Assembly: GCF_003325355.1 (NCBI RefSeq)
Contig: NZ_CP030852.1
Location: 1-64,000 of the forward strand
DNA length: 64,000 bases
Source of the DNA: Runella rosea
Lineage (GTDB): Bacteria; Bacteroidota; Bacteroidia; Cytophagales; Spirosomataceae
Direction: 5' to 3'
Shown one piece after another: positions 29,163 to 50,711 of the stretch; position 1 is the first letter of the stretch, and each line of letters starts with the position of its first letter. The notes under the pieces are model-generated. The model had not been told where the DNA came from, ran no database searches, and worked only from the letters and a program-made list of their open reading frames with translations. A program made the translations under genes and the position numbers.

Positions 29163-30356
29163 TTAAACTTCTACTTTGGTCACTTTTAAATCAAACCCTT
29201 CATTTAATTCAAAATAAAGGAGGAATCCCCTTTGTTTAGATTCCTGTTCTGTGATTTCTATATGAGAACGAATAGCCGAGAGCGAACGGAGTGATTCAGC
29301 ATGGTAGGGAAACATACGGAAGAATTCTTTCATCATCCATTCCACATCAGTGATCATGTTAAACTGATTGACCAGGGCAGTGCCTTGAAATTTAATTACT
29401 AATTCTCCATAATGACTCTTATTAGCTACATTACCCAAAAGGCGGTCATAAAATTCATCAGCGTGTTTGCGTAGCCGAGTCTTATAATCGGCTGTTACTT
29501 GCTCAATGTATTTGTCCACATCCATGATAGCCTCTCCACTACCCTGTTTGGCTTTCTTTTCTTCCAGTGCCTTCACGTTCTTCTTTTCCCACACCCAAAA
29601 CCGTATTCCTGTTACTCTTGGTTTTTTAGAATCCAAGTTGTTACCAAGCAGTTCATATTTTACAAACAAGTCGGTCTTCTCGTTTATCTCGTGAATGGCT
29701 GGGTCAATTACATGCTTCTTTAACGAAGAAAATCGTGAATAAACCACTTTATTGAAGCCCAGTTTTTCCTTGAACGATTTCAAATCTACATCTATCGGAC
29801 GACCATAATTTTTCCAGCTGCTGAAAAAAGGGAATAGCTTGATAGATCGAGTGGTTTGTAATGCAAATACGTTTTTCTTGAAAAAACTAAAATTCTCGGT
29901 TTCCTTTACCTGTAAGATCTGCTTCGCCAAGTCGTGTGAAATATATAGGTCAATTTTCCCCGAGTCATGCTTATGTACACTCTGCGAGATAATTGGCACG
30001 ATGATGGTTTCACGACCTTCTATCCATTCCACAAGAGTTGTCTGCAACATCTTGATTGAGTCAATCAAATACGAATAACCTGATGTATTGGTGGTTTGGA
30101 TGCTCTTTAAAAAGTCTTTAATTTCAAGCGTTAGGACGATGTTTGTGTTGCGACTCAGGTTTTCTAAGTCAGCGGGTTTGAGTCGAGAGGCAATTTCATA
30201 GAATAACTTGGGGGTATATACTTCGTTGATTTCAGCTTTTTTGCTTTTTGACAACTGACGTATAAAGGTAGGAGTGGCAATAGGGTTATTCAGAATGACT
30301 ACGTCGGAATTATTCTGCAAGTCTTCGATATATTCTGAATTGGTCTTCTTTGCCAT
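29163..30356 (-). CDS. Replication initiation protein, Rep_3 (RepB) superfamily
   Basis: 397 aa. The two winged-helix initiator domains are suggested by LISHDLAKQILQVKETENFSFFKKNVFALQTTRSIKLFPFFSSW-type sequence (about residues 140-205) and RVTGIRFWVWEKK (near 250). It binds iterons to open the origin. The start at 30356 faces the iteron region at 30478-31084. An inverted repeat carrying half-iterons (30497-30540) lies between the gene and the main iterons, as in plasmids where Rep dimers repress their own gene. This gene identifies the molecule as a plasmid or chromid. Confidence 0.88.
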   Translation of the reverse strand: MAKKTNSEYIEDLQNNSDVVILNNPIATPTFIRQLSKSKKAEINEVYTPKLFYEIASRLKPADLENLSRNTNIVLTLEIKDFLKSIQTTNTSGYSYLIDSIKMLQTTLVEWIEGRETIIVPIISQSVHKHDSGKIDLYISHDLAKQILQVKETENFSFFKKNVFALQTTRSIKLFPFFSSWKNYGRPIDVDLKSFKEKLGFNKVVYSRFSSLKKHVIDPAIHEINEKTDLFVKYELLGNNLDSKKPRVTGIRFWVWEKKNVKALEEKKAKQGSGEAIMDVDKYIEQVTADYKTRLRKHADEFYDRLLGNVANKSHYGELVIKFQGTALVNQFNMITDVEWMMKEFFRMFPYHAESLRSLSAIRSHIEITEQESKQRGFLLYFELNEGFDLKVTKVEV

Positions 30357-32835: not shown

Positions 32836-32838
32836 ACC

Positions 32839-33396: not shown

Positions 33397-33400
33397 TGGC

Positions 33401-33718: not shown

Positions 33719-33758
33719 TATTACGAATTTTTTAGGTTTGTAACTGATTTTTAAGAAA

Positions 33759-33812
33759 AAATAAATAATTTTTATTATTTTAAATTATTAAAATAATAAA
33801 AATTATTTATTT
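33759..33812. repeat. 25-bp perfect inverted repeat between divergent transfer genes
   Basis: Arms 33759-33783 and 33788-33812 are exact complements around ATTA and contain only A and T. The element lies upstream of both the TraE-like gene (33718) and the ParA-like gene (33900), so it probably served as a shared operator or promoter structure. Confidence 0.7.
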
Positions 33813-33899
33813 AAAATTTAATGTATATTTATTCATGTTTAACTCAAAGAATTGGTAACCACAGATTTTATCAGACTGAAAAATACCAGATATAAACCA

Positions 33900-34520: not shown

Positions 34521-34779
34521 GTGACGAATTTAAAAACCGTTTGGGTAAGTTGAGTACAAAACTTGCAGAAGAACCTGCTACTTTACCCATGCAAAAGGTA
34601 GAACCGGTTCAACTGGTTCTGTAGAAAACCGTGGAAGAGCCAGAGGAGGAAATTACCCAGTTCAACGTGAAAATCCCCGCTGCTTTAATGAAAAAATCAA
34701 GCATAAAGCGGTGGAGCAGGATATCAATATCAATGACGTGGTAGCTCAGATTTTGATTGATCACTTTAATAATTTATAA
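34511..34779 (+). pseudogene. Small transfer-region protein, broken
   Basis: Starts at 34511 inside the end of the ParA gene (10-base overlap). MAVSDEFKNRLGKLSTKLAE runs to a TAG at 34622-34624, then KTVEEPEEEITQFNVKIPAAL, then a one-base deletion before NEKIKHKAVEQDININD and VVAQILIDHF to the TAA at 34779. The end looks like a ribbon-helix-helix DNA-binding protein. Overlap and order suggest a ParA partner in transfer. Confidence 0.55.
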
Positions 34780-34788
34780 AGATTGATA

Positions 34789-35146
34789 TTGGAGTACGGA
34801 ACACATTTTTTGGAAATAGATTACCCAATTGGTATTTTAGATTACGAAGCGCTTGCTATTGGCATCTTTGCGGGTTATAAAGTCTATAACGTATATGACT
34901 TGCATAGGTCGTAAGGCTGTCTTATTGACATTCTTCGTTGCTGCGGTGAATTTTTTCGCGTTGATTTAAGTAAAGATTGTTCGTCTGATTCTGGGCCTTA
35001 CACTTGTTATTGGATTCCTTACCAATTATGTGGTGTAAGACTCTGTGGATAATTTCATTGGAATTGTGGCAGGCTCATCGATTGGAGCATTGATTAACTA
35101 CAAACACACCAAAGACTATAAAGTGTATCGTTATCCAACACCTTAA
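34789..35146 (+). pseudogene. Hydrophobic transfer-region protein, broken
   Basis: Begins at a TTG with LEYGTHFLEIDYPIGILDYE, then frameshifts near 34900. The continuing frame has KAVLLTFFVAAVNFFALI, TAA (34967-34969), VKIVRLILGLTLVIGFLTN, TAA (35036-35038) and FIGIVAGSSIGALINYKHTK to the stop at 35146. Three or four membrane helices are implied. No family recognised. Confidence 0.5.
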
Positions 35147-35325
35147 AGATCGCATGAAAGAGAATAAAGAAAAGGTTTTTAAAGCCATGGAGTTGAGACG
35201 GTTATTTGAGAGAAAATAGCGTAAATACCACCGCTTTTCAACTTAAATAACATAAAAATATAATTTATCCTCATTTAATTAAATGTTTTTATTATTTTAA
35301 GCCCAAAATTAAATAGATATTTTAA

Positions 35326-36076
35326 ATGTCGGGGCTGATAATCAAAGAGAAAGAAGGGAATGCTCTGGGTGGTAAGCTATTGCTGATTATTGCCATTCTG
35401 TTATTAATTTTTCACTTTTTGTGGTTTTGCCATGTGATTATAGCAGAAAGCCTACCTATCCGAGGCTTCATTTATACTTTTTTGACCAAGCTCCATCGCC
35501 AATTTAAGCTGTTTAACACGTCCATCCTTTCCAAAATTATGATCTATTTCTTGATATTTTTAAATTTACTTGGCTTGAAAGGAAAGATTGTTCCAAATGT
35601 TAAAAGGCAGAAAATAATGGCTGATGCCCCACTGTGGACAGCTTTATTCATGGGTTCAATCTTTCTGCTCTATCTGAAAGAGGCTTTTACTCCAATTTTG
35701 ATTGATACTTTTTATATCATTGTCACGTTGGTAGGCTCGCTATTGTTGGTCAAGCCAGGACAACACATGTCTCGATTGCTTTTGCCCAACCTGAAAATGA
35801 TATTTTAATGTATCGAACGAAGAATTCCCTCAAAATGAAACGTTTGTATCTAACGAATCAAGACTTCCTACCACTTCCTCGCAAATGGCGGGAAGGCTTA
35901 GTCGATATCGTAAACCCTTTTGGTTTGACCATGGTGTTGGGTTTGCCAGGTTCTGGAAAGTCATATACGATCTTAAAACCCAGTCTTTGGCAGTTCATTT
36001 ACGAGGGTTATACGGCTTAAATTTTTGGGGTATCAATTTTGATTATATTGAATATTCACACTGTTGAAATCCGTTG
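35326..36076 (+). pseudogene. Type IV coupling protein (TraD/MobC-like), frameshifted
   Basis: The first frame (35326-35808) encodes an N-terminal membrane region with four helices. The next frame, from about 35880, has WREGLVDIVNPFGLTMVLGL then PGSGKSYTILKPSLWQF, the P-loop of a VirD4-type coupling protein. After a TAA at 36018 another frame has INFDYIEYSHC, corresponding to the INFDDLEYSHRCNPL motif of the family. At least three frameshifts. The family docks the relaxase-DNA complex to the secretion channel. Downstream sequence is not recognisable as this protein. Confidence 0.65.
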
Positions 36077-36380
36077 TAATTATCAATATTATCGAAGAAA
36101 TTCTGGCATCAAATATCTCTACGTTGAAGCAGTACGAGTTCATTGGGCATTTTGTTGATAATTTTGGTGAGGAATTTGATATTAAAAACATTCAAAGCTT
36201 TTATGAGTGTATTGAAAGACCAGCTCAAAAAATGGAAAACTGCTTATAATCAATAATTTGGCAGTTTTGATGCAAAAGAAATATGATGTCGATTACCAAA
36301 AAATTAACCGAGCAAGAGTAACGTTCTTTCAGAAACTGGCTTTTACATGAACATTAATACCGTGTAAAGCAGGACATTCC
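36064..36380 (+). pseudogene. Unidentified broken coding fragment
   Basis: One frame reads ISTLKQYEFIGHFVDNFGEE and FDIKNIQSFYECIERPAQ to a stop at 36249; the next frame continues QKKYDVDYQKINRARVTFFQ. The two halves look like one helical protein broken by a shift. I do not recognise the family. Confidence 0.3.
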
Positions 36381-36494
36381 GCTGCTCATTGAGTATGAAA
36401 TGACAGAATACAGAAGAACTGCCGATTCGGCAGTTCGAAACCCATAGGTAATTTAACCACCGCTTCTGCGGTTCCGATTTTAAAATTTATACCA

Positions 36495-37019
36495 ATGAAC
36501 CCACGAGGTAGACCTAAGTTGGCTGCTGACGAGAAAGGCAGCTACACCCCTATTTTGGTAGGAGAAGATGTGCTGAAAACCTTACAGATATCTTCGGAAA
36601 AGCCCGAAGAACAGGCGGAATTGAAAGCCAAATTGACAATTGTGAAAGAACACCCTGAAGCAAGTGAATACTACTGGAAATTGGTGTTTACCTACTCGTT
36701 TTTTGTCTATAAAAACCGCCGTATGACAGATGCCATTTTTGAACGGTCTGATACAATGACACTCGAAAACATCAAAAAGATGAATCTTAAACAGTTGGCG
36801 GAGATAGTAAATATTGAGTATCATAACTTCAAAAATATGTACTCAGGGCGGGGAAATGCCAAGAATTTGTTGCAGTACCAGTCATTTTTGTACGAAAATG
36901 GAGTCAATTTTATTTCATTACAATATATGGATACGCTTATCAATAAGGCATATTCCTACTATCAATTGCTAAAAAGTGACAAATATACCAGCGAAGAATT
37001 GAAGAATTTGTTTTTTTGA
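36495..37019 (+). CDS. Hypothetical protein with AT-hook-like N-terminus
   Basis: 174 aa. Begins MNPRGRPKLAADEKGSYTP, where PRGRPK resembles an AT-hook. The rest is helical and charged (EEQAELKAKLTIVKE; LKQLAEIVNIEYHNFKNMYS, possibly an HTH). No family recognised. Unlike its neighbours it is unbroken, so it may still be in use. A DNA-binding role is a guess. Confidence 0.55.
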   Translation: MNPRGRPKLAADEKGSYTPILVGEDVLKTLQISSEKPEEQAELKAKLTIVKEHPEASEYYWKLVFTYSFFVYKNRRMTDAIFERSDTMTLENIKKMNLKQLAEIVNIEYHNFKNMYSGRGNAKNLLQYQSFLYENGVNFISLQYMDTLINKAYSYYQLLKSDKYTSEELKNLFF

Positions 37020-37132
37020 TTTTTCTATTGAGTCATCTTAAAAGCATAATTTAAACGCTCCAATCGAGATTCATAAGATGTTAAATACATGGACTTAGCA
37101 GCATCGCTCAGCCAAGATTTTTGCGTTAAAGT

Positions 37133-38032
37133 CTACACTTTCTCGTAGTCTTTCTGAAAAATAACCAATTGCTGGCGTACTCGTTTTTTGGCAGTACCAA
37201 TACGAGAACCAAATATGAGGAAATCAACGAAAGCGTAAAAAGCATTAGCAGTGTAGCTATCGGTTTCGTAATCATTACTAAAAAGACCGTCTTTTAACGC
37301 CATATCCGAATCAGTGAGATGTAAGCGGGTACAAATCAAGTTGTAAGCAGGGCTCAGTACAAAATCACCATCAAGGGTTTCGATAATGGAGAAGTTTTTG
37401 AGATGAGCGTCACCATTTGAAAACAAATCATTGAATAATACCAGTCGAAAAAATTTCTCCAATTCTACCCGATAAGCGGACAAATGGTGTTTTATCAATT
37501 GAGCAATTTCTTCATAACTGCCTTCGTATTTATAATCTGGCCCTGCTGATTGCTTCGTTCGGCCCGATAATGAAGCAAAATCTTCCTGCCGCCATTTTGA
37601 ACCATCAGACCGAAAATCAAAGCGTTTAAAAAGCAAAGCGGGCTCTTCGTCGACAAAGAAAATGAGGCCGTTAGCTGCTGATGAAACACCATACACTTGC
37701 CGAGCAATTTGCATGGTAAGATGTTCATTAGCGGGTATTTCAGTTGCCTTAGGTAAATCGGCAGGAATAGGTTTCAATATATAGTGTGTTTGCTCATTTG
37801 GTTGAGGCAGCCGTAAAGAAGTACCGTCAAGAACAAATACATTTTTTCCCTGTACGCCCGAAATGGAAAGCTACCGAAATGATTGGCCAAAACCAGAAAA
37901 GTTGATGCTCTGATGTCTTGGTGTTTGAAGGGTAGGAGAAACGCGTTTACCGTTAAAAAGTACCTGCCGGTCTTTAGGACAGTAAGTTTCAAAGTTGAGT
38001 TGTATTGTAGAGGGACAAACCATGATTTTCAT
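37133..38032 (-). pseudogene. HipA-like Ser/Thr kinase toxin core (HipT-like), inactivated
   Basis: 299 codons. The N-terminal part has SISGVQGKNVFVLDG and HYILKPIP (ATP-binding), the C-terminal part LFKRFDFRSDGSKW and FSNGDAHLKNFSI, the catalytic loop with Asp. A TAG at 37871-37873 (codon 54) interrupts the frame before LSISGVQ. The later metal-binding Asp, usually in PxYDL, is Asn here (SPAYNLIC). With both lesions no active kinase is expected. HipA-type kinases phosphorylate tRNA synthetases and cause growth arrest. It begins 3 bases after the HipS-like gene. Confidence 0.7.
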
Positions 38033-38035
38033 AGC

Positions 38036-38363
38036 TTAATGGTCTGTTTTTTTAGGTTGTTCCATAACTCGAACTGCTCCAATCGTATCAGAGTGTGCAA
38101 TGGCCAACAAAAGCCCGAAATCATCATTTTCGTCGATTTTAAGTAATCGACATTGTATCGCACGATTATAACCCTTTGATAACAGGCCATAGAATAAAGG
38201 AAAAAGGTAAGGCGACTTATATTCCTGATTTGAAATGGGCAACGTCAAACTCAATATTGGGGCGAGTGATGTAAGTGTCATCGTACCGAAAAATGAAACT
38301 GTCAGGCGTTTCAATCAGTTCGCCCACTGCTTCATGATTAAGATAGACAGTCGCCTTTCTCAT
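38036..38363 (-). pseudogene. HipA N-terminal domain protein (HipS-like), frameshifted
   Basis: Starts at 38363 with MRKATVYLNHEAVGELIETP and RYDDTYIT, then shifts by one base into LSLTLPISNQEYKSPYLFPL and FYGLLSKGYNRAIQCRLLKI, ending in TIGAVRVM at 38036. This is the HipA N-terminal subdomain encoded separately, as in three-gene HipBST systems. The start codon overlaps the antitoxin stop (ATGA), giving translational coupling. Confidence 0.7.
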
Positions 38364-38563
38364 AATTTAACGGTCAGGTTAAGTTCTAAACCCAGCACCT
38401 CTACAATTTTAGTTAGCGTTTGAAATGATGGATTACCCGTTCCGTTTTCAACGGCAATCACGGTACGAAGTCCTATCTCTGCCAAGTCGGCTAAGTCGTT
38501 TTGGCGAATATCAAGCCTTTGTCGACGTTGCCTTATGGTTTCACCAAGTTGAATGAGAGTCAT
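38360..38563 (-). CDS. hipB: HipB-like XRE antitoxin
   Basis: 67 aa, intact. The HTH is IRQRRQRLDIRQNDLADLAE and LRTVIAVENGTGNPSFQTL. It binds the operon promoter and neutralises the toxin. It is first in a three-gene row with overlapping or 3-base spacing to HipS-like and HipT-like genes. Retention of the antitoxin with broken toxin parts is the usual outcome of toxin loss. Confidence 0.8.
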   Translation of the reverse strand: MTLIQLGETIRQRRQRLDIRQNDLADLAEIGLRTVIAVENGTGNPSFQTLTKIVEVLGLELNLTVKL

Positions 38564-38577
38564 AAATGAAGATTTGA

Positions 38578-38657
38578 ATGTGCAATATAATGCTTGTTTG
38601 GCTCTGTTTTTCTAAAAACGCAATTGTTTGTTTATTAAATGTGTAATATATTGCATT
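38578..38657. promoter_or_regulatory. Operator repeats between hipB and the primase gene
   Basis: TGCAATATA at 38581-38589 and TATATTGCA at 38647-38655 form an inverted pair, each inside a longer similar stretch (ATGTGCAATATAATGC and ATGTGTAATATATTGCAT). They flank the divergent promoters and are likely HipB binding sites. Confidence 0.5.
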
Positions 38658-38675
38658 AAATAAAGAAACAAGTTG

Positions 38676-40406
38676 ATGCGAGACTTAGAACAAATCAAAC
38701 GAATATTGGATCTTGAAGTGGTTTTGCAACACTATGGCTACAGGTTTGTCAAATCGAAGTCATCAACTGTTTCGCGCATCTACCGAAAAGGAGAGCAACG
38801 CTTATCTGTCATTGTTGACGGAGGTTTCGCTGCCAAATTCTTTGCAGACTTAAACGATCCTCAATTTAAAGGCGATATTTTTAAGTTCATGGAACGTATG
38901 GAGCATGGAAACTACCGCCAAATATTTGAGAAGATTGAATTAATGATGGCTCAATCTGGTACGCTTCCCGATGTATTTGCCAAAAAGATAGATTTACCCG
39001 AGCAGAGCGTGGTTGAACCGGTGTCGGACCGTCGCAGGGAAGATATACGCCTCCGCGAGCAGGATTTATACCGCAAATTTCAGATTACACCGCTTACAGA
39101 TACTGAATACCTTGAAAGTCGGTATATTTCAAAAGATGTACTCTTTTCCAAAGAATTTGAAGGACGACTCAAAAATGTGACTTTTGATAACGGAGTTATT
39201 CAGTACGCAAATACAGCGTTTCCCATGTATGCGCGCAACGGAAACATTCAATCAATGGATATTCGGAATATGGCTTATAAAGCGTTTCCTAAAGGAGAGA
39301 GAGGGGAGGCTTTATGGCGTTCTAATCAGTTTTTTGAAGCAAAAAGGGCGTTGAAAGCCGAAAATGGACTGGAGATACCGGTAGGAACGCTTGGAACTCT
39401 TTACCGTCGTGATACCGAAAATTTCGTATTTATGTACGGAGAGGTAGGGAAAGAAATGCGTTTGATTGTACCTTATGAGCAAGCTAAAACGGGTCTGAAT
39501 GAAGTCCCTGTTCATCGAATAATCATTTCGGAATCGCCTATTGATGCAATTTCGTTAAAACAATTGAATCCTGAAAAAGCCAATGAACGACGTTTATACG
39601 TCGCTACTTGTGGACAGCCCAGCGGGAAACAACTGGCTTTTTTACAGGAAATTCTTAATCAAAATCCTCAGGCACAGTTTGTAATTGCACAGGATGGTGA
39701 TAATGCCGGCCTACGATTTGCAGTGAATTATTTGGTATTGGATCACCCATCCGAAGACCCAGAAATGAAGATTAAACCGTACCTGATGTTTTCATCGACG
39801 GTTGAACAGCAACCCAAGAAAATAAAGGAAAGTACCCAAACCCAAGAATCCACGGGAATGAACCGGTTGAAGCTGGAACTTCGCTACCCTTTGGCCGCTG
39901 GAGCAAGAAAAGCGCAGGAATTAAATGAGGGTTTTATCAGGGCTTTAGCGGAAGAGATGAATTTGTTTGCGTCACGAATACCCAAAAATTGTAATGACAA
40001 ATCTCAGAAAAATAAAGAACAGCAAATCGAGCATCATCTCCAGAACATACCTATCACAGAGACAATGCTCGACGAAAATATGCAGTACCTGATTACGCGT
40101 ACTGAGATTCACTTTCTGAATAATGCCGAACTAACTACAAAAGTACTGAAACGTATCAGTGATGAAATTGAAAACAGGCAGGGGCAAAAACTGTTTCAAT
40201 TCGTTTGTTTAACTCCGCAGCAAAAAGATTTGAATAATGTCTTAAAAGAGCTTAACGGTCAGGCGTTACCGTCGTCTCATCCTCTTACATTACCAGAACT
40301 TCCAGTTATTAAATCATACCAAGATATTCAAAAAGACAAAAAAGCGGGTAAGGAAAATGTTGAACATCAGTGGTTTATGTCAAATAATAACAAAATTATA
40401 TTTTAA
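38676..40406 (+). CDS. Plasmid-type DNA primase (CHC2-like N-terminus, TOPRIM)
   Basis: About 576 aa from the ATG at 38676. The N-terminal zinc-finger-like region lacks clear Cys ligands (LEVVLQHYGYRFVKSKSSTV). The TOPRIM core has the Glu in RIIISESPIDAIS near residue 290 and the Asp pair in FVIAQDGDNAGLRF near 345. These match primases carried by conjugative plasmids and ICEs in Bacteroidota, which prime the transferred strand or plasmid replication. It is intact in a region of broken genes, which suggests it is still useful, perhaps for replication. Confidence 0.82.
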   Translation: MRDLEQIKRILDLEVVLQHYGYRFVKSKSSTVSRIYRKGEQRLSVIVDGGFAAKFFADLNDPQFKGDIFKFMERMEHGNYRQIFEKIELMMAQSGTLPDVFAKKIDLPEQSVVEPVSDRRREDIRLREQDLYRKFQITPLTDTEYLESRYISKDVLFSKEFEGRLKNVTFDNGVIQYANTAFPMYARNGNIQSMDIRNMAYKAFPKGERGEALWRSNQFFEAKRALKAENGLEIPVGTLGTLYRRDTENFVFMYGEVGKEMRLIVPYEQAKTGLNEVPVHRIIISESPIDAISLKQLNPEKANERRLYVATCGQPSGKQLAFLQEILNQNPQAQFVIAQDGDNAGLRFAVNYLVLDHPSEDPEMKIKPYLMFSSTVEQQPKKIKESTQTQESTGMNRLKLELRYPLAAGARKAQELNEGFIRALAEEMNLFASRIPKNCNDKSQKNKEQQIEHHLQNIPITETMLDENMQYLITRTEIHFLNNAELTTKVLKRISDEIENRQGQKLFQFVCLTPQQKDLNNVLKELNGQALPSSHPLTLPELPVIKSYQDIQKDKKAGKENVEHQWFMSNNNKIIF

Positions 40407-41164: not shown

Positions 41165-41725
41165 TCACATATTTTCCAGATTTCCTTCGCGCTTCTGCCA
41201 CAATTTTTTAAAATAGGATGGAGGGACACCTGTCACCTTTTTGAACTGAGTCGATAAATGTGCGACACTACTGTAGTGGAGGCGATAGGCAATTTCGGTT
41301 AAATTTATCTCATCATATAGCAGCAATTCTTTGACACGTTCAATTTTATGAAGGATAATGAACTGTTGGATAGTCATGCCTTTATGCTCTGAAAATATGT
41401 TTGATAAATATGTATAATCGTAGCCTAATTTTTCGCTGATATAGTCTGAGTAATTTACTTTGGGTACTTCATTCTCATAATGGATCATTTTAATGATGAC
41501 GGCCTTTGTCTTTTCAATAAGGATACTTTTTTTATCGTTAAGCAATTCTAGTCCTGATTGGAGTAGTTGTTCTTTAAGGATTTCACGTTGTGGTGGTGTA
41601 ATCTCTTCCAAAAGCTCTACCATACCCAAGTCAATAGTTTTGTAAGGCAACCTGAGCTTTTTTAGGGTCGCTTCCACTACCATTTTACAACGTAGACTGA
41701 CCATAAATTTGATGTATAGCTTCAT
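41165..41725 (-). CDS. AraC-type HTH regulator, short
   Basis: 186 aa. The C-terminal AraC domain has DYTYLSNIFSEHKGMTIQQF and INLTEIAYRLHYSSVAHLST followed by QFKKVTGVPPSYFKKL. The N-terminal 80 residues are not a cupin, so it belongs to the short AraC group often found on mobile elements of Bacteroidota. Target unknown. It is transcribed away from the ice-binding gene. Confidence 0.8.
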   Translation of the reverse strand: MKLYIKFMVSLRCKMVVEATLKKLRLPYKTIDLGMVELLEEITPPQREILKEQLLQSGLELLNDKKSILIEKTKAVIIKMIHYENEVPKVNYSDYISEKLGYDYTYLSNIFSEHKGMTIQQFIILHKIERVKELLLYDEINLTEIAYRLHYSSVAHLSTQFKKVTGVPPSYFKKLWQKREGNLENM

Positions 41726-42474
41726 GTAGTTTTTTGTTGATTGTATTCATTATATCATCGCTTTTACTAAAAGCAGATGAATACAAACCGAGGCCCTTAA
41801 GCTATACAAAACATAAGGTGAGCGTATCTACCCGTAAGCACTAAACAATCATGCCACACAACTAAAAAATTGGTCAAATTGTATATAAACCCTTTAAAAT
41901 GTGAGATTTATGTAAGAAAAAATCTAAGATATGTAATACTTTACTGATGAAGCAGAATCAGTTTTAATTGAATTACAACAAAATCATTTTGTTTTTGCTG
42001 TGAATAACCTGCCAATACCAAAGTTTATTATGGGTGTCCCAAACGTAAAATGAGTTCCACTCATTTTACAGGGCTAGTCGAATTTAACACTTTAAAAAAG
42101 TGTGATTTATATAATTATTTTCTGGAAATATGTAACACAAATTATGCTCCTAAGTTTGACATTTGTATTATGTCTGTTTATAGTTATGCTATCGTTATGG
42201 ATTTACTTGAAGTAAATACTTCTGCGAAATTGGATTCCCCGTATTTTTCGACTTTCTACATCATTAATTGAACCTGCAGCTTACCCAATTGCTTGAAGAG
42301 TACTCAATTACGACTGTATCACAACAAAACAATTAAAAATGAGCTATCTATCCGCTTATCGATTTTAAAACTGCTTTGGCCCATTTTTTATCATTGTACT
42401 TTTTGAGGGAGTATTTATTGCATTATTTTTTTTGTCAACAGGTTTAAGAGAATCACCATTTAATTTAAAAAAAA
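41726..42474. other. Intergenic stretch without a convincing gene
   Basis: About 750 bases. A 10-bp inverted repeat (GTAAAATGAG at 42045-42054 with its complement at 42060-42069) is the only clear structure. A 73-codon frame at 42050-42271 lacks support. The last 50 bases should hold the promoter of the ice-binding gene. Confidence 0.5.
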
Positions 42475-43701
42475 ATGAAAAAAAATTTATTTCTAATTCT
42501 AAGCGTATCCACCTTGGTTTGTTTGAAAAGTTTAGTTTTTGGACAGGCTCCTAATCTGGGGACAGCCTTTGACTTTGCATTATTTACGGCAAATGGGGCT
42601 TTTACGAATACGGGGGCATCAATGGTCATTGGTGATATTGGTACTAATGTGGGGGCTTTTAGTGGCTTTCCTCCAGGTACAGTAGTGGGAAACATTCGTT
42701 TGCCAGGTTCACCCGAAGCAGCGCAGGCCGCCATAGATGTAGTATCGGCCTATAACTCTTTGAACTCACGTCCTTGTGGTACAATCATTGCGCCCGAATT
42801 AGCTGGGCAAACATTGATGTCAGGGATAGTTTACTGCCAAAATACGGCCGCTCCTACAACTTTAAACGGAACCTTAACTTTAAGCGGGACTGGGATTTTT
42901 ATCATAAAGTTAAGCAGTGCTTTAACGACCGCAACTTCTTCATCAATTGTTCTGATTAACGGTGCTACCGCCAACAATGTGTTTTTTCAGGTAGATGGAG
43001 CCGTTACTTTAGGGACTGGCTCAGTCTTTAAGGGTACTATACTTGCACAGGGTGCTATAGTCCTGAATACTGGTGCTTCCCTTGAGGGGAGAGGCCTTTC
43101 AGTGGCAGGGGCAATTACATTAAACAATAATTCAGTGACCAATGTAGCGCGGCCATTACCCGTTACTTTGGTGTCTTTTACTGCCAAACCCCTTTCAAAT
43201 CAAACAGTTGACTTGGCTTGGACTACATCGCTGGAAACCAATAACAAAGGTTTTCTCGTGGAGCGCAGTAAGGAATTGAGAAATTTTGAAAAGGTAGAAG
43301 AAATAAGCGAAATCGCTGCCAACAGCAATTCCTTGAAAACCTATCGCCTTGTGGATCGAAAAGCGTATTCTGGTACCAGCTATTACCGATTGACACAAAC
43401 CGATCTCAGCGGTAAAGTGACGGTCTATCCAGCTATTTCGGTTGTTTTACGGGAAGATGCCTACGGGGTATTTCCTAACCCCGTTGTTAGTGAGGGAAGG
43501 TTTACCCTGCGTTTAGACGAGCCAGAAACCGCTTTGGTCAATCTTTATAGTATGGAAGGACGTTTGCTTCCCCTTCAAAAAATTGGAGTCCAGTCTGGTA
43601 ATCTTATGTTAAAAGCTACTAGCAAGATAGCCACTGGTGTGTATATTCTCTCAGTAGTGGAGCGAGGGCAAACGCGGAATCACCGCGTGGTCGTCGAGTA
43701 G
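42475..43701 (+). CDS. Ice-binding-like (DUF3494) secreted protein with T9SS sorting domain
   Basis: 408 aa. Signal peptide MKKNLFLILSVSTLVCLKSL then the DUF3494 beta-helix at about residues 25-220 (ASMVIGDIGTNVGAFSGFP; GTIIAPELAGQTLMSGIVYC; FKGTILAQGAIVLNTGASLE). A fibronectin-like linker follows, then a type A T9SS sorting domain at the end (GVFPNPVVSEGRFTLRL; GVYILSVVERGQ). Such proteins are exported and may attach to the cell surface; the DUF3494 fold binds ice in several organisms but also acts as an adhesin. It is 61 bases upstream of the lasso-type precursor gene on the same strand. Confidence 0.88.
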   Translation: MKKNLFLILSVSTLVCLKSLVFGQAPNLGTAFDFALFTANGAFTNTGASMVIGDIGTNVGAFSGFPPGTVVGNIRLPGSPEAAQAAIDVVSAYNSLNSRPCGTIIAPELAGQTLMSGIVYCQNTAAPTTLNGTLTLSGTGIFIIKLSSALTTATSSSIVLINGATANNVFFQVDGAVTLGTGSVFKGTILAQGAIVLNTGASLEGRGLSVAGAITLNNNSVTNVARPLPVTLVSFTAKPLSNQTVDLAWTTSLETNNKGFLVERSKELRNFEKVEEISEIAANSNSLKTYRLVDRKAYSGTSYYRLTQTDLSGKVTVYPAISVVLREDAYGVFPNPVVSEGRFTLRLDEPETALVNLYSMEGRLLPLQKIGVQSGNLMLKATSKIATGVYILSVVERGQTRNHRVVVE

Positions 43702-43762
43702 ATGTTATAAATTTTCAGTTCAATTTTTATTGTCCACCATCCACTACTAATAAAACTCAACC

Positions 43763-43909
43763 ATGAATACTAAAGGTCAGTATTTATCAGCTCCAGCCTC
43801 TAAAAAGGCGTATAAAACCCCCAAGTTAAAAGTCTTGGGTAAAGTAAAGAAAATGACTCAAAAACTTGGGTCGGCAACCGATGGTTTTGGCGGTTCTTTT
43901 GAAGGTTAA
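43763..43909 (+). CDS. Lasso-type RiPP precursor peptide
   Basis: 48 aa, MNTKGQYLSAPASKKAYKTP and so on, ending GSATDGFGGSFEG. The leader matches Y-x2-P-x-L-x3-G-x5-T exactly: Tyr17, Pro20, Leu22, Gly26, Thr32. If Thr is at position -2, cleavage after Gln33 leaves a 15-residue core starting Lys34, with Asp40 as core residue 7 able to close a ring. Lys at position 1 is unusual; cleavage before Gly36 would place Asp at 5, too early. Its neighbour 51 bases away, convergent, is the cyclase-like gene. No B1/B2 (recognition element/protease) or D (exporter) gene is visible in the window. Product unknown. Confidence 0.72.
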   Translation: MNTKGQYLSAPASKKAYKTPKLKVLGKVKKMTQKLGSATDGFGGSFEG

Positions 43910-43960
43910 CCAAATGTATAAGTGAAGAAGTTTTACGTTTGATATATTATATACCCATAA

Positions 43961-45916
43961 CTACCTAGCATTTTTGGCTGAATCTAGCCAGAGTGCTAGG
44001 TAAATAATACGACTCAACAGCCAGTTGTACCGGGTTTTTCTTTGCATTGGCACTCGATGCTCAAATACAACATTCACGATTTTTAAAAATAGGGTGCGGT
44101 CAATCACCTCCCAAATGGCATGACTTGGCGATTTAAATTGCTGATGCGCTGCCAAATAGAGTTGCTGGGCCGAAATCGTACCGTATTCCACAAAGTTGGC
44201 TTTGGTAAGTCGAGAAACAATTTGAGAAGGCAGAATCGTTTGTAAGCCATTCCGAATCAAACCACGTCCGCGTCCATGATCAAAGCTGATTTTGGCAGGG
44301 GTCGACAGGCCTAACTCTACAACATTTTTGTCGAAGAAAGGAAACGTATATTGATGGCCGTAATAAGCACCAATGTGATTTAATTGCTCATTACAGATTA
44401 CATTGGTTGTATTAAGAATTTGATTGGTAGAAACATTAAACTCCGACGAAATAGAAGCGCTCAATGCTTCGGTAGACTGAAGCACTCTTGCAGGTATCTG
44501 CTGTTTAAACTCAACACTAAATGCATTGTCAAGAAGGTTTTGATGAACAATTTTAGCCTTGACACGCTGAATGCAATACGCAATAATGGCCGATGTAGAG
44601 ATCCTAAGCGCCTGTTTTGTGATGGATAATGCCTTTAAAAAAGTACTAAATGGATGGGAGCGGAACCGCTTGGTTATATTGCCTCCAATGATGTGCAAGG
44701 CGTATTTTTCGTATTTTGAATGAGTGCTTAAGTCTCCGTTGTTATTCCCTAAAAAAGCCAGATTTCGCTCAGTGTATGAGATATATTGCAGACAGGCCAG
44801 GCGTAGTTCTTGCCAATCACTGGTGTCTATTAAGTAATCCAAGTACTCAAGACCGGTGGTGATAACACTGTCGCCGTCGTGCCCCGTGAGCAAACAATCA
44901 CAACCCAGTTGTTTGGCCTTTATCGAAACACTCAGGTGAAAACTGGACGGAATGATAAAGTGGTCGGGGCGGTCAAAAAGCTGATTGATTTTCAGTACAG
45001 CATCGAGCACGTCAGCGGTGGGATGTACGGTGTGGTGTTGCGTATGGTATTGCTTCACGACAGCTTCCACAAACGTAGATTCATCAGTCGAAGCCAGCCC
45101 TGTGTCAATGTTGAAGGTATGAAGTGAAGGGCGTTTTTGCTGGGTGAGTAAAGATTGGGCGATACAACTGACCGATGAAGAATCCAAACCACCGCTCAAA
45201 TGAGCGCCAATGCTCATTTTACCTTTTATTCGGGCGTCAATCGCGGCGGTAAAATGTTCTTTAAACAACGTTGAATATTCTTCGGGGCGGCTTATTTGGC
45301 TGAACTTTCCAAGGTTTGGGTTCCAGTAAGGTGCTAAATGTACTTTTTCGACATTGACTTCAAGAAAATGGCCCGGCAGAAGGCTGTAGATATTTTCGTA
45401 AAAAGTTTCTGAACTATAAGGTGTATACGTAGTACTCCAGGTTAGGTACTCCCTGAATTTATGTCTGTTGGGTGTTACTACTATTCCCGCAAGCCCAATC
45501 AAAGCTTTAATTTCGGTAGCAAAGGCAAAAAAACGACCCGGCTGATGTACATAGTAAAAGGGCATAACGCCCAGAATATCTCTTGCGCAAACCAGCGCCT
45601 GTTGGCGAGTATCCCACAAGGTTAGGGCGAAATCAGCATTTAACTCATTGAACGAAGAAAGGCCATTCTGAAGAAAACTAGAAATAAAAAGTTGATTGAT
45701 TGACGGGTTGGGAAAATCAGTATGCACCACGGCGTAAATACCAGCGGCATTGTTTGATTCAATTGTATTTCCAAACGCCAGCAGTGCTCCTTGGTCAATG
45801 ATTTGACCCGATACCTCTCCCCGGTGCCTTAGCCTTTGTTTAATATGTGTGAGGTCTTGGGCAGAAACCGCCTTACCATCAAACCGAATCATTCCCGCAA
45901 TCCCACCCATATTCAT
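43961..45916 (-). CDS. Asparagine synthetase homologue, probable lasso cyclase (C protein)
   Basis: About 651 aa. The N-terminal glutaminase-like domain begins MGGIAGMIRFDGKAVSAQDL, but the catalytic Cys2 of asparagine synthetase is Gly here, so glutamine use is unlikely. The synthetase domain has the PP-loop SGGLDSSSVSC near residue 250 and TGHDGDS near 360. Lasso cyclases activate an Asp/Glu side chain with ATP and close an isopeptide ring; loss of the glutaminase Cys is typical of them. The start could be the Met at 45937, 45916 or 45910. Next to a lasso-type precursor, a cyclase role is the best reading; other amide-forming roles remain possible. Confidence 0.75.
   Translation of the reverse strand: MNMGGIAGMIRFDGKAVSAQDLTHIKQRLRHRGEVSGQIIDQGALLAFGNTIESNNAAGIYAVVHTDFPNPSINQLFISSFLQNGLSSFNELNADFALTLWDTRQQALVCARDILGVMPFYYVHQPGRFFAFATEIKALIGLAGIVVTPNRHKFREYLTWSTTYTPYSSETFYENIYSLLPGHFLEVNVEKVHLAPYWNPNLGKFSQISRPEEYSTLFKEHFTAAIDARIKGKMSIGAHLSGGLDSSSVSCIAQSLLTQQKRPSLHTFNIDTGLASTDESTFVEAVVKQYHTQHHTVHPTADVLDAVLKINQLFDRPDHFIIPSSFHLSVSIKAKQLGCDCLLTGHDGDSVITTGLEYLDYLIDTSDWQELRLACLQYISYTERNLAFLGNNNGDLSTHSKYEKYALHIIGGNITKRFRSHPFSTFLKALSITKQALRISTSAIIAYCIQRVKAKIVHQNLLDNAFSVEFKQQIPARVLQSTEALSASISSEFNVSTNQILNTTNVICNEQLNHIGAYYGHQYTFPFFDKNVVELGLSTPAKISFDHGRGRGLIRNGLQTILPSQIVSRLTKANFVEYGTISAQQLYLAAHQQFKSPSHAIWEVIDRTLFLKIVNVVFEHRVPMQRKTRYNWLLSRIIYLALWLDSAKNAR
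43963..44001. terminator. Stem-loop at the end of the cyclase gene
   Basis: ACCTAGCA (43963-43970) pairs with TGCTAGGT (43994-44001) with an inner GGCT/AGCC pair. It overlaps the cyclase 3' end and may stop transcription from either side. Confidence 0.5.
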
Positions 45917-46080
45917 TAACGAAAAAAATAAAGACAATACGTGCGCTTTTAGCTCTTCAAGGTACTGATTATCCCCACGGCAAACAATCTTCTGCTGGAT
46001 TATGTCCTTGTAATATCTGCATTACTTTGTTATCTTTACCCAAGGTCGCTTTTAGTAGCTGTTTATCAATTGTTTAAACG

Positions 46081-46794
46081 ATGTTTAAGAAACACAATTT
46101 GTGGTTTTTTTTCCTGCTGTTTTTCCTTGGCTTGTGCGAAGGATGTCGGCAAATGAACCATGAACCCACCCCCGATGACGCGGCTTTTTTCCCCCTACAG
46201 GTTGGTGATTATTGGGTGTATCAGGTGACGCAGGAAAAGTATTTGGCCATTAAATCATCCCTAAAAAGTAGTTATCAATTTCAAGAAAAAATTAAGAGTT
46301 CATACCTTCAAAATGGTCAATTGTTTTATCTAGTTGAAGAGTCTACCCGGCAAACGGAGCAGTCTGCTTGGAAGCTCACGGGCATCCATACGGTTTATAA
46401 AAGCCTTTCGGAAGTTGTTAGTCAAGAAAACAACGTGCCGATGATTGAATTGGTCTTTCCCATTTTACTTACTACTTCTTGGAATTCTAATTTGTACAAT
46501 ACCCGCCCCGATACTAAACTCCAATATCAGAATCAAGGTAAAGCGTATAGAAGGGGGCCTTTGGGGTTTGATCGTACTATTTCAGTGATGGGAGACAATG
46601 ATTCTACCTTGGTCAATCAATCAAAATATTTCCGGATTTATGCCCCAAATATTGGTTTGGTGTACCGTGAAGATGTTGCTGTTGCCTTTTGCCAGTCGTC
46701 GTCTGATTGCATCGGCAAGGGCATCATTGAGTCAGGTGCAACAATGAAGTGGGAATTAATAGCGAGCAACCGATTGCTCAATACAACCAAATAA
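46081..46794 (+). CDS. Lipoprotein of unknown function
   Basis: 237 aa. The leader MFKKHNLWFFFLLFFLGLCE is followed by GCRQM, a lipobox with Cys22. PLQVGDYWVYQVTQEKY suggests the common Bacteroidota lipoprotein opening seen in adhesin- or substrate-like proteins. It ends overlapping the convergent C25 peptidase gene by 17 bases. Divergent from the cyclase gene with about 140 bases between. Confidence 0.7.
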   Translation: MFKKHNLWFFFLLFFLGLCEGCRQMNHEPTPDDAAFFPLQVGDYWVYQVTQEKYLAIKSSLKSSYQFQEKIKSSYLQNGQLFYLVEESTRQTEQSAWKLTGIHTVYKSLSEVVSQENNVPMIELVFPILLTTSWNSNLYNTRPDTKLQYQNQGKAYRRGPLGFDRTISVMGDNDSTLVNQSKYFRIYAPNIGLVYREDVAVAFCQSSSDCIGKGIIESGATMKWELIASNRLLNTTK

Positions 46795-49700
46795 GTTTTC
46801 CAGTATGCATTTCTGCTTGCCCGTTTTTTCGGATTAGCCGTAATTTATAGATGTAATGCCCGGGGGCTTTTGCCTGCCATAGAAAAGTGTTTTTACCAGC
46901 TTCGACGGGGTAATTGCCATCGAAAACAAGTAATCCCAATAGGTTATAAATGGTCAGTCGCGACTCGGTCGGCAATTCCTCTCTGTTCAGGTTCAATTCA
47001 AACTTGACATATGAAATGGCTGGGTTCGGATAAGCCAAAAAAGTAATAGGGGCATTGGGGGGTAAGGGGTTGAGTGTTAGCGTATAGGGGTTTTTTGTTC
47101 GATTACCTGAGGCATCTTTTCCAAAAATAATGAGCTGGTAGGTTTTGTCTTCATCGAGGTCTAAATGGGTTGAGGCTCGCAGCCGATTGTCCGAAAAAGC
47201 GGTAATTTTCACTAATTCTGGGGATATTTTTTGAGGGCTACAGGTACTGCACGCCAACAAAAAAACCTCAAATGCACTTAAATCACTGGCCGACAATGGG
47301 TTCTCATCCACGAGATAAATATCTACTTTCGGTTTTGGGTCAACGAGGGCGTAGTTTTCTTTCATGACCCCGTTAATAAAAACACTAAGTACTGGGCTGA
47401 CTACATCGGGTACAAGATTGGGTGGAAAACTGTTGCCCGTTGCCTGCGTCCAATCAATCAGAAGGGTGGTGGTATTGTTGGCTTTGTTCAGTTCAATAAA
47501 ATGGTTGTTGGGGTCAATGCGTACTTCAATTTTGTTCAATATAGTATCCGTTGGTATGGTATGATACACCGTATCGCGGTAACGAAAACCGTTGACTAGA
47601 ATTATTTTTTCGGTGGAGACTTTTCCCGTAATTTTCAATAACAATGAGACAGGTCGATCGGGCACGAATTTGCCTAAATTACTGATGGGAATTACCACTC
47701 GAATCGAATCACTGTTTTTGAGCGTACTTCCCGTGACCGAAGATTGAATGTAGATATCTTTTTGCGCCACGGCAAAATCGGGGCTTGATAATGGATATGG
47801 GATAAATGCGGGGTCTCCTTGAAGCACCATTTGCAACAAAACTGATACGTCAAAAGCACTAATGCTCTCTTTTTCAAGGTTTTCGTTCAGGAGTTGTTGG
47901 GTTCTGCCTAGCGATAACCCAAATGTGTTTACGTTGGTAAATAAATTGCCGTAAAGTTTAGTCAAGTAGCGGGTGGTGGGTGCTTCGTAGCTATAGTAGG
48001 AGTGGGCGAGTACTGCTGCCGCCCCTTTCTCAGGGGCCAACAGCCAGTCGGTAGAGAGGGTATTAAAACGGGAAAAAATCTCCCCAACTCCACAACCATT
48101 AAAAATCATGAGGGGATAAAATCGGTTACGGAAACCATTCTCTGGCGGTGAAGCAAAACCAAAATTTAGGTCGGTGATGGAGGGCCCCGCGTGGCCAATA
48201 AATGTAATCAAGCTGGTGCCCTCATTGACAATCGGAGCAATATCAATGGATTCTACCTTTTCGTAAGGATTGCTTTTGTGGAAGGATGTTATCTTTCCAC
48301 CCACAAATCCGTTTCTAAATATATCTCCCAGATGTTGGATTGCGGCCTTCAAACTTTGCGCTTCGTCGTGGGTTTTTCCACCGCTGATGTGAACGATGTT
48401 TTTACGCCATAAACCCTCAGAAAATGTTTCCTCCAACTGTTTGAGTTTGGCCAGATAGGACAGAACCTGCTCGTCGGTAGTTACGTTGAGTCTTCCTGTG
48501 GGTATGGCGGGGGTATTGGCCGAAAAGCCTTTTAAACCAGACGTCAACAAAATATCGGAGCCTGGATAACCGATTGTCGGCACTAAATCATCGGCGGCAG
48601 TTTTGACAAAATAGGGATAACTACAGGCTTTACCGATTAGCAGTAAATTTTTTACCGCCGTATTTGATAGCATAAAATCCGCAAAACGACGTATGGCTAA
48701 CGGACCCCGCTCGCCGTAGTTAAACGCATCATAGAGAGAATCAGCCTCTACCATGAGTATCTTGTGCCCTCCCCCGATCGAGGAGGCACGGTAGTCGGCA
48801 TAAGCTTTGGCTGAGTGTTTTAGCGAAGTATGGGTAATAATCACGTAATCTGTTGATGCAGAGAAGGTCAATTGAAATTTGACTGGCGCAATCCCCATTG
48901 GTTTCAACGACTGAGTCGTCAACAGAATGTCGCGGTTGCGGGTTGTTTCATCGACCACTATCTGCGCTTGGCCGTCACTAATTTCCAAAGTTAAGAGTCT
49001 GCAATTGGATTTGTCGGTTATGTCATAGCCTGTGGCGGTCGTGGGCACATTTTGTACCAAAAGTAAAGCAGACTGACGGGCGTTGGCCAGAAGGTGAAAT
49101 ACCTTGGAGGACACCCCCGCCATGTCGAAGGCCTGCGGATAGGATAGTTTTACGTAGGTAATTGAAAATTGATTTTTAATGTTGGTTTTTTTGGGCTCAA
49201 AACGTACGCTAAGGCGTTGGTTGAGCACCGAACTTGCCGCAATGGTGGTCTGGAATGTCTGGCTCATAAATCCCCAAAAATCCAAGGAGGGCAGGGTGGT
49301 TTGGGGATTGGTGTCTACTTGAATCTCAATTTGATGAAACAGATTATCCCGACCGTTGATCATGCCTTCCAGTTTGATGGGCCAATTGGTTTCGATTTGA
49401 TTCACCAATTTGAAATGAACTACACCAATGGAGTCAGAGGTCAGGAGGTTTCCAGACCATCCCTCTCCAGGCTCAAAATAACTTTGTTGGAGCGTAGGTT
49501 CGATTCCTTTCAAACTGTTAAAAGTATATTCTTTTATGAAGGCTTGGACGGTCTCTTCAAGGTGGAATTTTTCAAGGATAAGGCCTTGTGCGGAGGTATT
49601 TAATTCCAAAATTCGTTTGCCAGCAGATGAAGGATGGATGGTTAGGAAATAGGCAGCAACGTCCGAAAATAGCGTTTGATAGGGGTGTAGCCTTTTTTGT

Positions 49701-50062
49701 GGCCGATAGAGCAGCGAATCTTGACTCCCGTCGTTTCCTTCGCCGTAGAATTCAAGGTAATCAGTGTCTTCAAAAATCCCGTTTTGTTGGCCTACAATGC
49801 GTATGGCTATTTCCTTTCCTCGCCAGAATAATTGCCAATGAATAGGGTTTGTCTGGAGAAAAGTAGCATCTGCGTTTTTAATATCCTGATAACTGATACG
49901 ATAAATTCCCGATTGCGTAATTGAAAATTTTAAATATTTCTGATTGGGCCTAATCCATTCGTTGACCAACTGACTTTGAGCATTTAAGGTCAGGGTATTG
50001 AAACACAACCACGCTAGAAGTATTATTTTTACACTTTCAAAGTGAAACAATGTTTTACGCAT
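46778..50062 (-). CDS. C25 (gingipain/PorU-like) cysteine peptidase with T9SS C-terminal domain
   Basis: 1094 aa with a signal peptide (ILLAWLCFNTLTLNAQ). The N-terminal part is a PorU-like prodomain (WIRPNQKYLKFSITQSGIYR). The peptidase domain lies at about residues 420-760 with catalytic His in LITFIGHAGPS and Cys in MIFNGCGVGEIF. C-terminal Ig-like domains precede a sorting-type domain (FLAYPNPAISYVKFELNLNR). PorU is the sortase of the type IX system; a second plasmid-borne copy could be such a sortase or a T9SS cargo peptidase. The adjacent ice-binding protein is a plausible T9SS substrate. Confidence 0.82.
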   Translation of the reverse strand: MRKTLFHFESVKIILLAWLCFNTLTLNAQSQLVNEWIRPNQKYLKFSITQSGIYRISYQDIKNADATFLQTNPIHWQLFWRGKEIAIRIVGQQNGIFEDTDYLEFYGEGNDGSQDSLLYRPQKRLHPYQTLFSDVAAYFLTIHPSSAGKRILELNTSAQGLILEKFHLEETVQAFIKEYTFNSLKGIEPTLQQSYFEPGEGWSGNLLTSDSIGVVHFKLVNQIETNWPIKLEGMINGRDNLFHQIEIQVDTNPQTTLPSLDFWGFMSQTFQTTIAASSVLNQRLSVRFEPKKTNIKNQFSITYVKLSYPQAFDMAGVSSKVFHLLANARQSALLLVQNVPTTATGYDITDKSNCRLLTLEISDGQAQIVVDETTRNRDILLTTQSLKPMGIAPVKFQLTFSASTDYVIITHTSLKHSAKAYADYRASSIGGGHKILMVEADSLYDAFNYGERGPLAIRRFADFMLSNTAVKNLLLIGKACSYPYFVKTAADDLVPTIGYPGSDILLTSGLKGFSANTPAIPTGRLNVTTDEQVLSYLAKLKQLEETFSEGLWRKNIVHISGGKTHDEAQSLKAAIQHLGDIFRNGFVGGKITSFHKSNPYEKVESIDIAPIVNEGTSLITFIGHAGPSITDLNFGFASPPENGFRNRFYPLMIFNGCGVGEIFSRFNTLSTDWLLAPEKGAAAVLAHSYYSYEAPTTRYLTKLYGNLFTNVNTFGLSLGRTQQLLNENLEKESISAFDVSVLLQMVLQGDPAFIPYPLSSPDFAVAQKDIYIQSSVTGSTLKNSDSIRVVIPISNLGKFVPDRPVSLLLKITGKVSTEKIILVNGFRYRDTVYHTIPTDTILNKIEVRIDPNNHFIELNKANNTTTLLIDWTQATGNSFPPNLVPDVVSPVLSVFINGVMKENYALVDPKPKVDIYLVDENPLSASDLSAFEVFLLACSTCSPQKISPELVKITAFSDNRLRASTHLDLDEDKTYQLIIFGKDASGNRTKNPYTLTLNPLPPNAPITFLAYPNPAISYVKFELNLNREELPTESRLTIYNLLGLLVFDGNYPVEAGKNTFLWQAKAPGHYIYKLRLIRKNGQAEMHTGKLIWLY

Positions 50063-50711
50063 AACTCAGGTTGTATATTAAAGTGGATTCTGGATTACCC
50101 AGAAAAGTGCAAAAATGAGATATTTGTAGTATTTCGTGTATAGAACTTAAATGTATGCTTCATGACAAAACTAAATTACTTTGATTAATGAAATATGAGG
50201 TAGTCCTTGTGTCGATAGCTATCATGTATTGTTCACTGTACTTCTAATTCTCCTCCAACACTCAATTACATAGAAAGCTTTAACAAGGTAGACATTTTTT
50301 TTGGATGGTAAGTATCAGAAAATGGCTCTCCCTAAGGGGTAAATACACTGGCGGTTCAAGTTTCAGCCTTTAACTGACCTTGAAATATTAAAACGATTAT
50401 TTTTTTGGTAGAAGAAGCCATTGTCTTGGCTGTCTGTGAGGGTGATTTTTAAAAAAAGGGAGGTTGATTATTTGTTAAAACCGTGATTTGTTTATACCAA
50501 TGTCTACTTAAACACATAGTATGTAAATAGTTGGTATCCAAATGGTTGTCTTAGTTTGGTTAGGTGCTTGTGTAGTAAAATTTAATAAAAAATCAATTAT
50601 TCAGATTCTGTGGTAGTATGTTCCCAAGATTTGCATTTTGGTTTATCTTGAAGTAAATGGATAAATTAAATCTGACTTAATCGAAAGCCATCGTTTAATC
50701 GACTAAATTTA
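50063..50711. other. Intergenic stretch without a visible gene
   Basis: About 650 AT-rich bases between the C25 peptidase start and the histidine kinase stop. No frame looks coding and no strong repeat was seen. It should hold the promoter of the peptidase gene and the terminator of the kinase operon. Confidence 0.5.

Follow-up and report, generated by a model that had tools for sequence, protein, structure and literature searches.

A plasmid-borne lasso peptide precursor and cyclase of Runella rosea, probably served in trans by chromosomal B1 and B2 proteins

The first 64,000 nucleotides of contig NZ_CP030852.1 of Runella rosea (the window; the contig, here C3, has 87,933 bp in a genome of 7.16 Mb) contain a small gene for a lasso-type precursor peptide next to a gene for a lasso-type macrolactam cyclase, with none of the helper genes B1 and B2 found on the contig. 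This pair is probably the plasmid-borne 'spoke' of a split lasso peptide system, which would be served in trans by a B1-B2 pair encoded on the chromosome of the same genome. All evidence for the split system is comparative. As lasso genes are usually sought as clusters, much lasso chemistry would go unnoticed with a hub-and-spoke layout of this kind, and if the pairs do borrow resident B1-B2 proteins, they would represent portable two-gene cassettes.

The precursor MNTKGQYLSAPASKKAYKTPKLKVLGKVKKMTQKLGSATDGFGGSFEG fits the lasso leader pattern Y-x2-P-x-L-x3-G-x5-T letter for letter, as had been claimed by the first-pass annotation, which was made from the window sequence alone. Its leader ends with ...YKTPKLKVLGKVKKMTQ, followed by the predicted core KLGSATDGFGGSFEG, in which the acidic residue of lasso precursors (core position 7 to 9) is Asp7, the position of the acceptor acid in lasso peptides with seven-residue rings. 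The Lys1-Asp7 ring itself is a prediction, but the earlier proposal of a seven-residue ring closing at Asp40 of the precursor agrees with the Lys1 and Asp7 common to 30 distinct precursors. The peptide also matches the NCBIfam lasso peptide family NF033528 (E 2.4e-7, 30.6 bits; naming cut-off of 33 missed), a model which is independent of the profiles built in this study. This match and the conservation of the precursor beside the cyclase in relatives led to the rejection of a chance small frame.

Precursor and cyclase genes are convergent, with 51 bases separating the two stops (cyclase stop at 43961). The cyclase frame opens at TTG, but the likely start is the ATG at 45907, in line with how the nearest relatives begin (M-G-G-I-A-G). 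With this start the protein begins with M-G-G-I, which puts Gly in place of the glutaminase Cys2, so that the first-pass description of a convergent asparagine synthetase homologue with Gly for Cys2 held. Judged by its sequence, the protein has the features of a lasso cyclase, namely relationship to asparagine synthetases, intact ATP-site residues and loss of the glutaminase Cys2, and lacks the catalytic Cys2 of asparagine synthetase B. Its best family is the lasso cyclase NF033535 with 313.6 bits (cut-off 525), followed by asparagine synthase TIGR01536 with 174 bits; the NF033535 cut-off is also missed by the cyclase of a complete chromosomal cluster of the same genome (480.5 bits). In an unrooted tree the window cyclase belongs to a six-row clade of cyclases from lasso-type loci (support 100/100), whereas six Cys2 asparagine synthetase rows form their own clade (100/100) apart from it. 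The phylogeny that had been named as a possible refutation therefore placed the protein outside the ordinary enzymes. A fold search with the cyclase model gave asparagine synthetase-like and beta-lactam synthetase-like folds on top and did not discriminate lasso cyclases.

No B1 or B2 gene was found by a profile search of the whole 87,933-bp contig, and tblastn of the contig with B1, B2, kinase-like and nucleotidyltransferase proteins returned two matches at chance level only (E 0.34 and 0.50). Hidden fragments of these genes on the contig were hence rejected, and the earlier remark that no B1 or B2 is visible near the pair extends to all 87.9 kb. If B proteins act in trans, their presence in the same cluster would be a usual rather than a defining trait of lasso systems. 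The whole-genome search which had been recommended did yield two B1 and two B2 genes above the Pfam cut-offs on the chromosome; among NCBIfam models, lasso_biosyn_B2 scores above its cut-off and lasso_PqqD_Bac below, with Pfam PqqD above its own. The chromosomal cluster at C1:1.96 Mb (Table 1) encodes a leader, KKYRAPKLKVVGKVATLT, that is close to the window leader, KAYKTPKLKVLGKVKKMT; an eight-residue ring would suit its core, AMGSAGGD.... As helper partner, the cluster at C1:5.73 Mb was rejected, since its leader is of another type (WAKP, and Asn where others have Gly). The reliance on B proteins elsewhere in the genome, which had been raised as one of two options, is thus supported by the chromosomal B1-B2 pair with its related leader, by the intact loci of relatives and by a family-wide split.

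Related precursor-cyclase pairs, for which a search had likewise been suggested, were found in Runella, Spirosoma, Fibrisoma and Dyadobacter. A second Runella (G006) has the same pair with a cyclase that is 89% identical, and orthologues with 49-67% identity occur in another Runella (G009), Spirosoma, Fibrisoma and one Dyadobacter. Fourteen orthologous loci (L110-L123, 49-89% identity; L111 being that of G009) were compared. B1 and B2 are in place at eight of them (L111-L116, L118 and L121), six of which (L111-L115 and L118) also keep the kinase-like gene, the precursor and the cargo; no precursor was found at L116 and no kinase-like gene at L121. B1 only was present at two loci (L117 and L120) and neither gene at four (L110, L119, L122 and L123), of which L119 and L122 say little because their stretches end near the cyclase. 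The simplest history would be that the B block was lost in the lineage of the window or that the pair moved without it. A comparison of the two orphan copies gave ratios of nonsynonymous to synonymous substitution rates (dN/dS) of 0.20 (cyclase) and 0.19 (precursor, from only five nucleotide differences). Hence the pair seems to be kept by selection, and the cyclase looks to be under purifying selection despite the missing B block.

A survey of 81 genomes of the family, each at least 95% complete, extends this picture. Limits of 240 bits for the cyclase, at least 80 bits for B1 and at least 60 bits for B2 were set after the score tables had been seen, the counts are not independent since window and Runella sequences sit in the profiles, and kinship is uncorrected in all co-occurrence tests. 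With three YcaO-type loci excluded, 29 genomes have a lasso-type cyclase, at 40 loci. B1 was present in 28 of these 29 genomes versus two of the 52 without such a cyclase, and the two (G020 and G050) both have a weaker cyclase match; B1 plus B2 were present in 27 of the 29. Nevertheless, B1 and B2 lie within 15 kb of the cyclase at 10 of the 40 loci and not at the other 30 (three of the 40 are within 15 kb of a contig start). Of the 13 genomes of the genus Runella, nine have a lasso-type cyclase. These nine are also the ones in which a B1 exceeds the Pfam cut-off, and eight have a B2 as well, in one case a contig-end fragment. Cyclase matches in G003 and G007 were rejected as ordinary Cys2 enzymes. 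In the single-contig genomes G030, G038 and G048, 2.3-2.7 Mb separate the B1-B2 pair from the cyclase, and in the single-contig genome G073 the distance is 3.7 Mb linearly or ~0.35 Mb round the 4.06-Mb circle. Ten loci (L191, L193, L195, L199, L204, L207, L211, L219, L225 and L227) contain B1, B2 and the kinase-like gene, with no precursor or cyclase found by the profiles of this study in the 16-18 kb read. Genome G021 has four lasso-type cyclases and one strong B1-B2 pair. In G012 a single precursor-cyclase pair, one clear B1 and one clear B2 are spread over three loci (L083, L084 and L057). Such scattered cyclases and remote B1-B2 pairs are what a shared hub serving remote spokes predicts, and this suggests that in related bacteria one shared helper set often serves scattered precursor genes.

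In the split system proposed here, the precursor, located just behind a gene for a type IX secretion system (T9SS) cargo, would probably be read together with it. The chromosomal B1, a recognition element of ribosomally synthesized and post-translationally modified peptides (RiPPs), would bind the YxxPxL leader and pass it to the chromosomal B2 protease, which would cut after Thr-Gln. The plasmid-encoded cyclase would then activate Asp7 with ATP and join it to the new N-terminus of Lys1. The product, if threaded as expected, would be a 15-residue lasso with a seven-residue ring and a computed [M+H]+ of 1411.65 in the cyclised form. As judged from the gene neighbourhood only, its most likely place of action would be the cell surface, jointly with the T9SS cargo, the lipoprotein and PorU2. 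Service to foreign leaders has a parallel in FusB1, a RiPP recognition element from outside Bacillota, which binds non-cognate leaders with similar efficiency (PMC13381572).

Several points weigh against this proposal. Both precursor and cyclase stay below the curated naming cut-offs of NCBI, and a ring of seven residues would be tight if Asp closes it. The co-occurrence is partly confounded because many genomes with an orphan cyclase also hold a cyclase beside B1 and B2; moreover, the surveyed genomes are related to each other and were counted without phylogenetic correction, and G064 (B1 with 60 bits only, no B2) and G086 (B2 with 49 bits) are exceptions. In genome G006 (99% complete, 60 contigs) the orphan pair is accompanied by a B1 of the right type, but the sole B2 match is of the WxxP-leader type. 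In L095, L117 and L120, too, the interval from B1 to the kinase-like gene yielded no B2. Either an assembly miss or service by the other type of B2 or another peptidase would account for these gaps, whose positions are 14412-15633 in L052 (G006), 1083-2144 in L095, 13121-14448 in L117 and 13128-14354 in L120. Finally, a split lasso operon (cebulassopins) was reportedly described in 2026, so that splitting of a lasso pathway may in itself not be new.

Among alternative explanations, it appears unlikely, though not far-fetched, that the pair works without a canonical B2, either via another peptidase or by leader-free or leader-independent cyclisation. The four loci with a kept B1 and no B2 found beside it would fit, and pseudomycoidin is said, in the title of a 2019 paper, to form without leader and leader peptidase. 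However, B1 and B2 accompany the cyclase in nearly all cyclase-bearing genomes (27 of 29). Thr at leader position -2 in 57 of 57 precursors argues in the same direction, if weakly, as the selecting pattern demands this Thr. It is quite improbable that the pair is what a decaying cluster left behind after loss of its B block, with no product made any longer. Relatives do carry a block that is absent from the window, but two genomes have both frames open, the cyclase keeps its ATP-site residues, its dN/dS between the orphan copies is within the range of three neighbouring genes (0.07-0.20), and the same 7.7-kb stretch occurs in differing surroundings in the two genomes.

The core of the window peptide belongs to a larger group. 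Among 57 distinct precursors collected from Bacteroidota loci, 30, including that of the window, start their core with K-x-G-S-x-x-D (28 distinct cores), and 14 have Gly1 and an acid at position 8. A gene with a T9SS sorting domain lies within 500 bp of 26 of the 30 Lys1-Asp7 precursors versus none of 25 others (a recount on 55 precursors from a slightly different locus set), an outcome toward which the sorting-domain profile is biased, as it was built from neighbours of Lys1-Asp7 loci; the four Lys1-Asp7 precursors without such a gene are those of L218, L122, L117 and L198. With the independent NCBI model TIGR04183 (cut-off 23), the window cargo scores 41.4 bits and 10 of 10 further Lys1-Asp7 neighbours pass with 34-52 bits, whereas none of ten other genes (nine beside other cores and one from L117) passes, the best reaching 19.9 bits (L017). 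The link is seen in two distant halves of the cyclase tree, one with the window and one with the second orphan pair (split 99/99). PorU2 was found within 10 kb of 28 of the 40 cyclase loci. It is not lasso-specific, as it occurs in 28 of the 29 genomes that have a lasso-type cyclase and in 38 of the 52 that do not. A cyclase is near 33 of the 73 PorU2 rows shorter than 1,250 residues and near none of the 31 longer ones. PorU2 or cargo is nearby for 41 of 45 precursors with Lys among the first four core residues and for 4 of 10 without that Lys. A literature search on lasso peptides together with type IX secretion found no paper. The link between Lys1-Asp7 cores and T9SS cargo offers a concrete lead to the role of these Bacteroidota lasso peptides.

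This lysine would also allow another ring, a Lys-Asp isopeptide in which the side-chain amine of Lys takes the place of the N-terminus. Of the 57 precursors, 42 contain K.G[SG]..D; their Lys is at core position 1 in 30 cases and at positions 2-4 in 12, so that the Lys-Asp spacing is constant while the distance from the leader Thr varies. Still, this ring is doubtful at best: cores without this Lys (AMGSAGGD and GMGSGGGD) adjoin homologous cyclases, and published lasso rings have 7-9 residues and join the N-terminal amine to Asp or Glu (PMC8498205). A similarly speculative idea starts from PorU of Porphyromonas, which is proposed to prefer an amine nucleophile when joining cargo to the surface anchor (PMC4560394). 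PorU2 might act as a dedicated type IX sortase, remove the sorting domain of the cargo and couple the C-terminus thus exposed to the free amine on the side chain of the conserved ring lysine, with the lasso peptide as a surface cap. If so, a secreted protein would carry a lasso peptide at its end and lasso peptides would be part of a protein-display system, which would explain the pairing of Lys1 with a cargo gene, often with PorU2 nearby. That the pair is just an ordinary asparagine synthetase adjoining a chance small frame is hardly credible: fold and domains are of the asparagine synthetase type, and in the unrooted tree the long branch of the Cys2 enzymes falls among lasso cyclases from other phyla, so that cyclases are not one clean clade, but the Gly at Cys2, the firm placement among cyclases of lasso-type loci and the precursor conserved alongside lead to its rejection.

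Xanthomonins I-III are reportedly lasso peptides with seven-residue rings, which are closed between Gly1 and Glu7; a ring of this size is also predicted for the window peptide, here between Lys1 and Asp7. In overall layout, the system resembles clusters of the paeninodin/pseudomycoidin type (A, B1, B2, C, kinase K and nucleotidyltransferase N), as described in PMC5067487 and PMC8498205, in its separate B1 and B2, YxxP leader, Thr at -2 and cyclase, and relatives share the kinase-like gene and, in 2 of 2 tested (L045 and L191), an NTP_transf_5 gene. Unlike in these clusters, B1, B2, K and N are away from the precursor and cyclase of the window, which adjoin T9SS cargo, PorU2 and lipoprotein genes instead. 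Leader proteases encoded away from the precursor they serve are also described for lanthipeptides (PMC8960859 and PMC10885120); those, however, belong to another RiPP class and involve other proteases, whereas here recognition protein and protease are usually found together. The window PorU2 is a C25-family relative of the PorU sortase (PMC4560394), with His and Cys motifs kept.

Table 1. Positions of features in the window and of the lasso loci compared with it.
Feature	Position	Strand	Remarks
Rep3 plasmid replication initiator	29163..30356	-	marks the contig as plasmid
AraC-type gene, possible regulator	41165..41725	-	homologue at the other end of the module in the G009 locus
Shared 7.7-kb stretch	42377..50077	.	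89.6% to contig C13 of G006
T9SS cargo, ice-binding-like domain and type A C-terminal sorting domain	42475..43701	+	61 bp upstream of the precursor, same strand
Lasso-type precursor, 48 residues	43763..43909	+	leader motif, NCBIfam match, core motif common to 30 distinct precursors
Lasso-type macrolactam cyclase (C)	43961..45937	-	likely start ATG 45907; SGGLDSSS ATP motif kept; Gly for Cys2
Predicted lipoprotein	46081..46794	+	no known family; relatives adjoin PorU2 and cyclase at many mapped loci
PorU2, C25-family sortase-like protein of type IX secretion	46778..50062	-	His/Cys motifs GHAG and NGCG kept
Chromosomal cluster	C1:1.96 Mb		precursor, cyclase, ABC gene, B1, B2, kinase-like gene, PorU2
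Second orphan pair	C1:2.39 Mb		precursor, T9SS cargo, cyclase; core KIGSQFD...
Chromosomal cluster	C1:5.73 Mb		WxxP leader, different architecture
Locus of G009 (another Runella)			cargo, precursor, B1, B2, kinase-like gene, nucleotidyltransferase (NTP_transf_5), cyclase, lipoprotein, PorU2

As to the carrier of the pair, the Rep3 initiator of contig C3 shares 97% identity with its counterpart on plasmid pRUNSL02 of Runella slithyformis, and eight blocks in 29176-40364 align with this plasmid at 73-83%. C3 also encodes a ParA-type ATPase and a YWFCY protein. These genes and the similarity to pRUNSL02 show that the contig is a plasmid. Nothing on pRUNSL02 matches the lasso stretch of C3, and no lasso pair is present in the gene list of that plasmid, which is possibly incomplete. 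A plasmid collection contained no close DNA match to 42400-46900, and all its protein matches to the cyclase were below 60% identity. The stretch 42377-50077 is the sole match of at least 250 bp between the C3 plasmid and 73 of the 76.5 kb of contig C13 of G006. A mobile-element call for this 7.7-kb module was rejected as too weak, since it rested on one imperfect 23-nt direct repeat (83%) at 42195 and 50636. The structural model of the lipoprotein gave weak matches only (best E 3.6e-5, template modelling scores 0.33-0.41).

Some further observations were made at the loci read. Apart from the AraC-type gene (window 41165-41725; L045 3602-4171), the lasso modules of the plasmid and of G009 are collinear. 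This gene lies at one end of the module in the plasmid and at the other end in G009, while its orientation relative to the module is unchanged, a pattern expected from a circular permutation. A long PorU2-like protein (1645 residues) is encoded at L190 5777-10714, with no lasso gene among the listed frames. Dyadobacter loci L131, L134, L137, L141, L142, L144, L148-L153, L156 and L159 contain precursor, cyclase and then two tandem PorU2 genes, in most cases with a lipoprotein gene ahead. Many have G-K-x-G-S-x-x-D cores; no B1 or B2 was found within the stretches fetched. At L017 1171-5177 (G000:C1:6.29 Mb), L091, L094 and L226, in four genomes, a precursor with a lasso-type leader and cores such as AAGSGDADGMTGLSVC stands beside a YcaO protein and a lasso-like cyclase, with no B1 or B2 found within the stretches read; a YcaO-lasso hybrid is possible for loci of this type. 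L209 (5570-5767 and 13028-13225) and L196 (12429-12554 and 17253-17384) each have two Lys1-Asp7 precursors that are similar or near-identical to one another, both with a T9SS cargo gene nearby. A different lasso-like cluster at L003 8162-13210, and also at L087 and L088, combines a WxxP leader with a kinase-like gene, B2, cyclase, a CxxCxxCC-like protein and B1.

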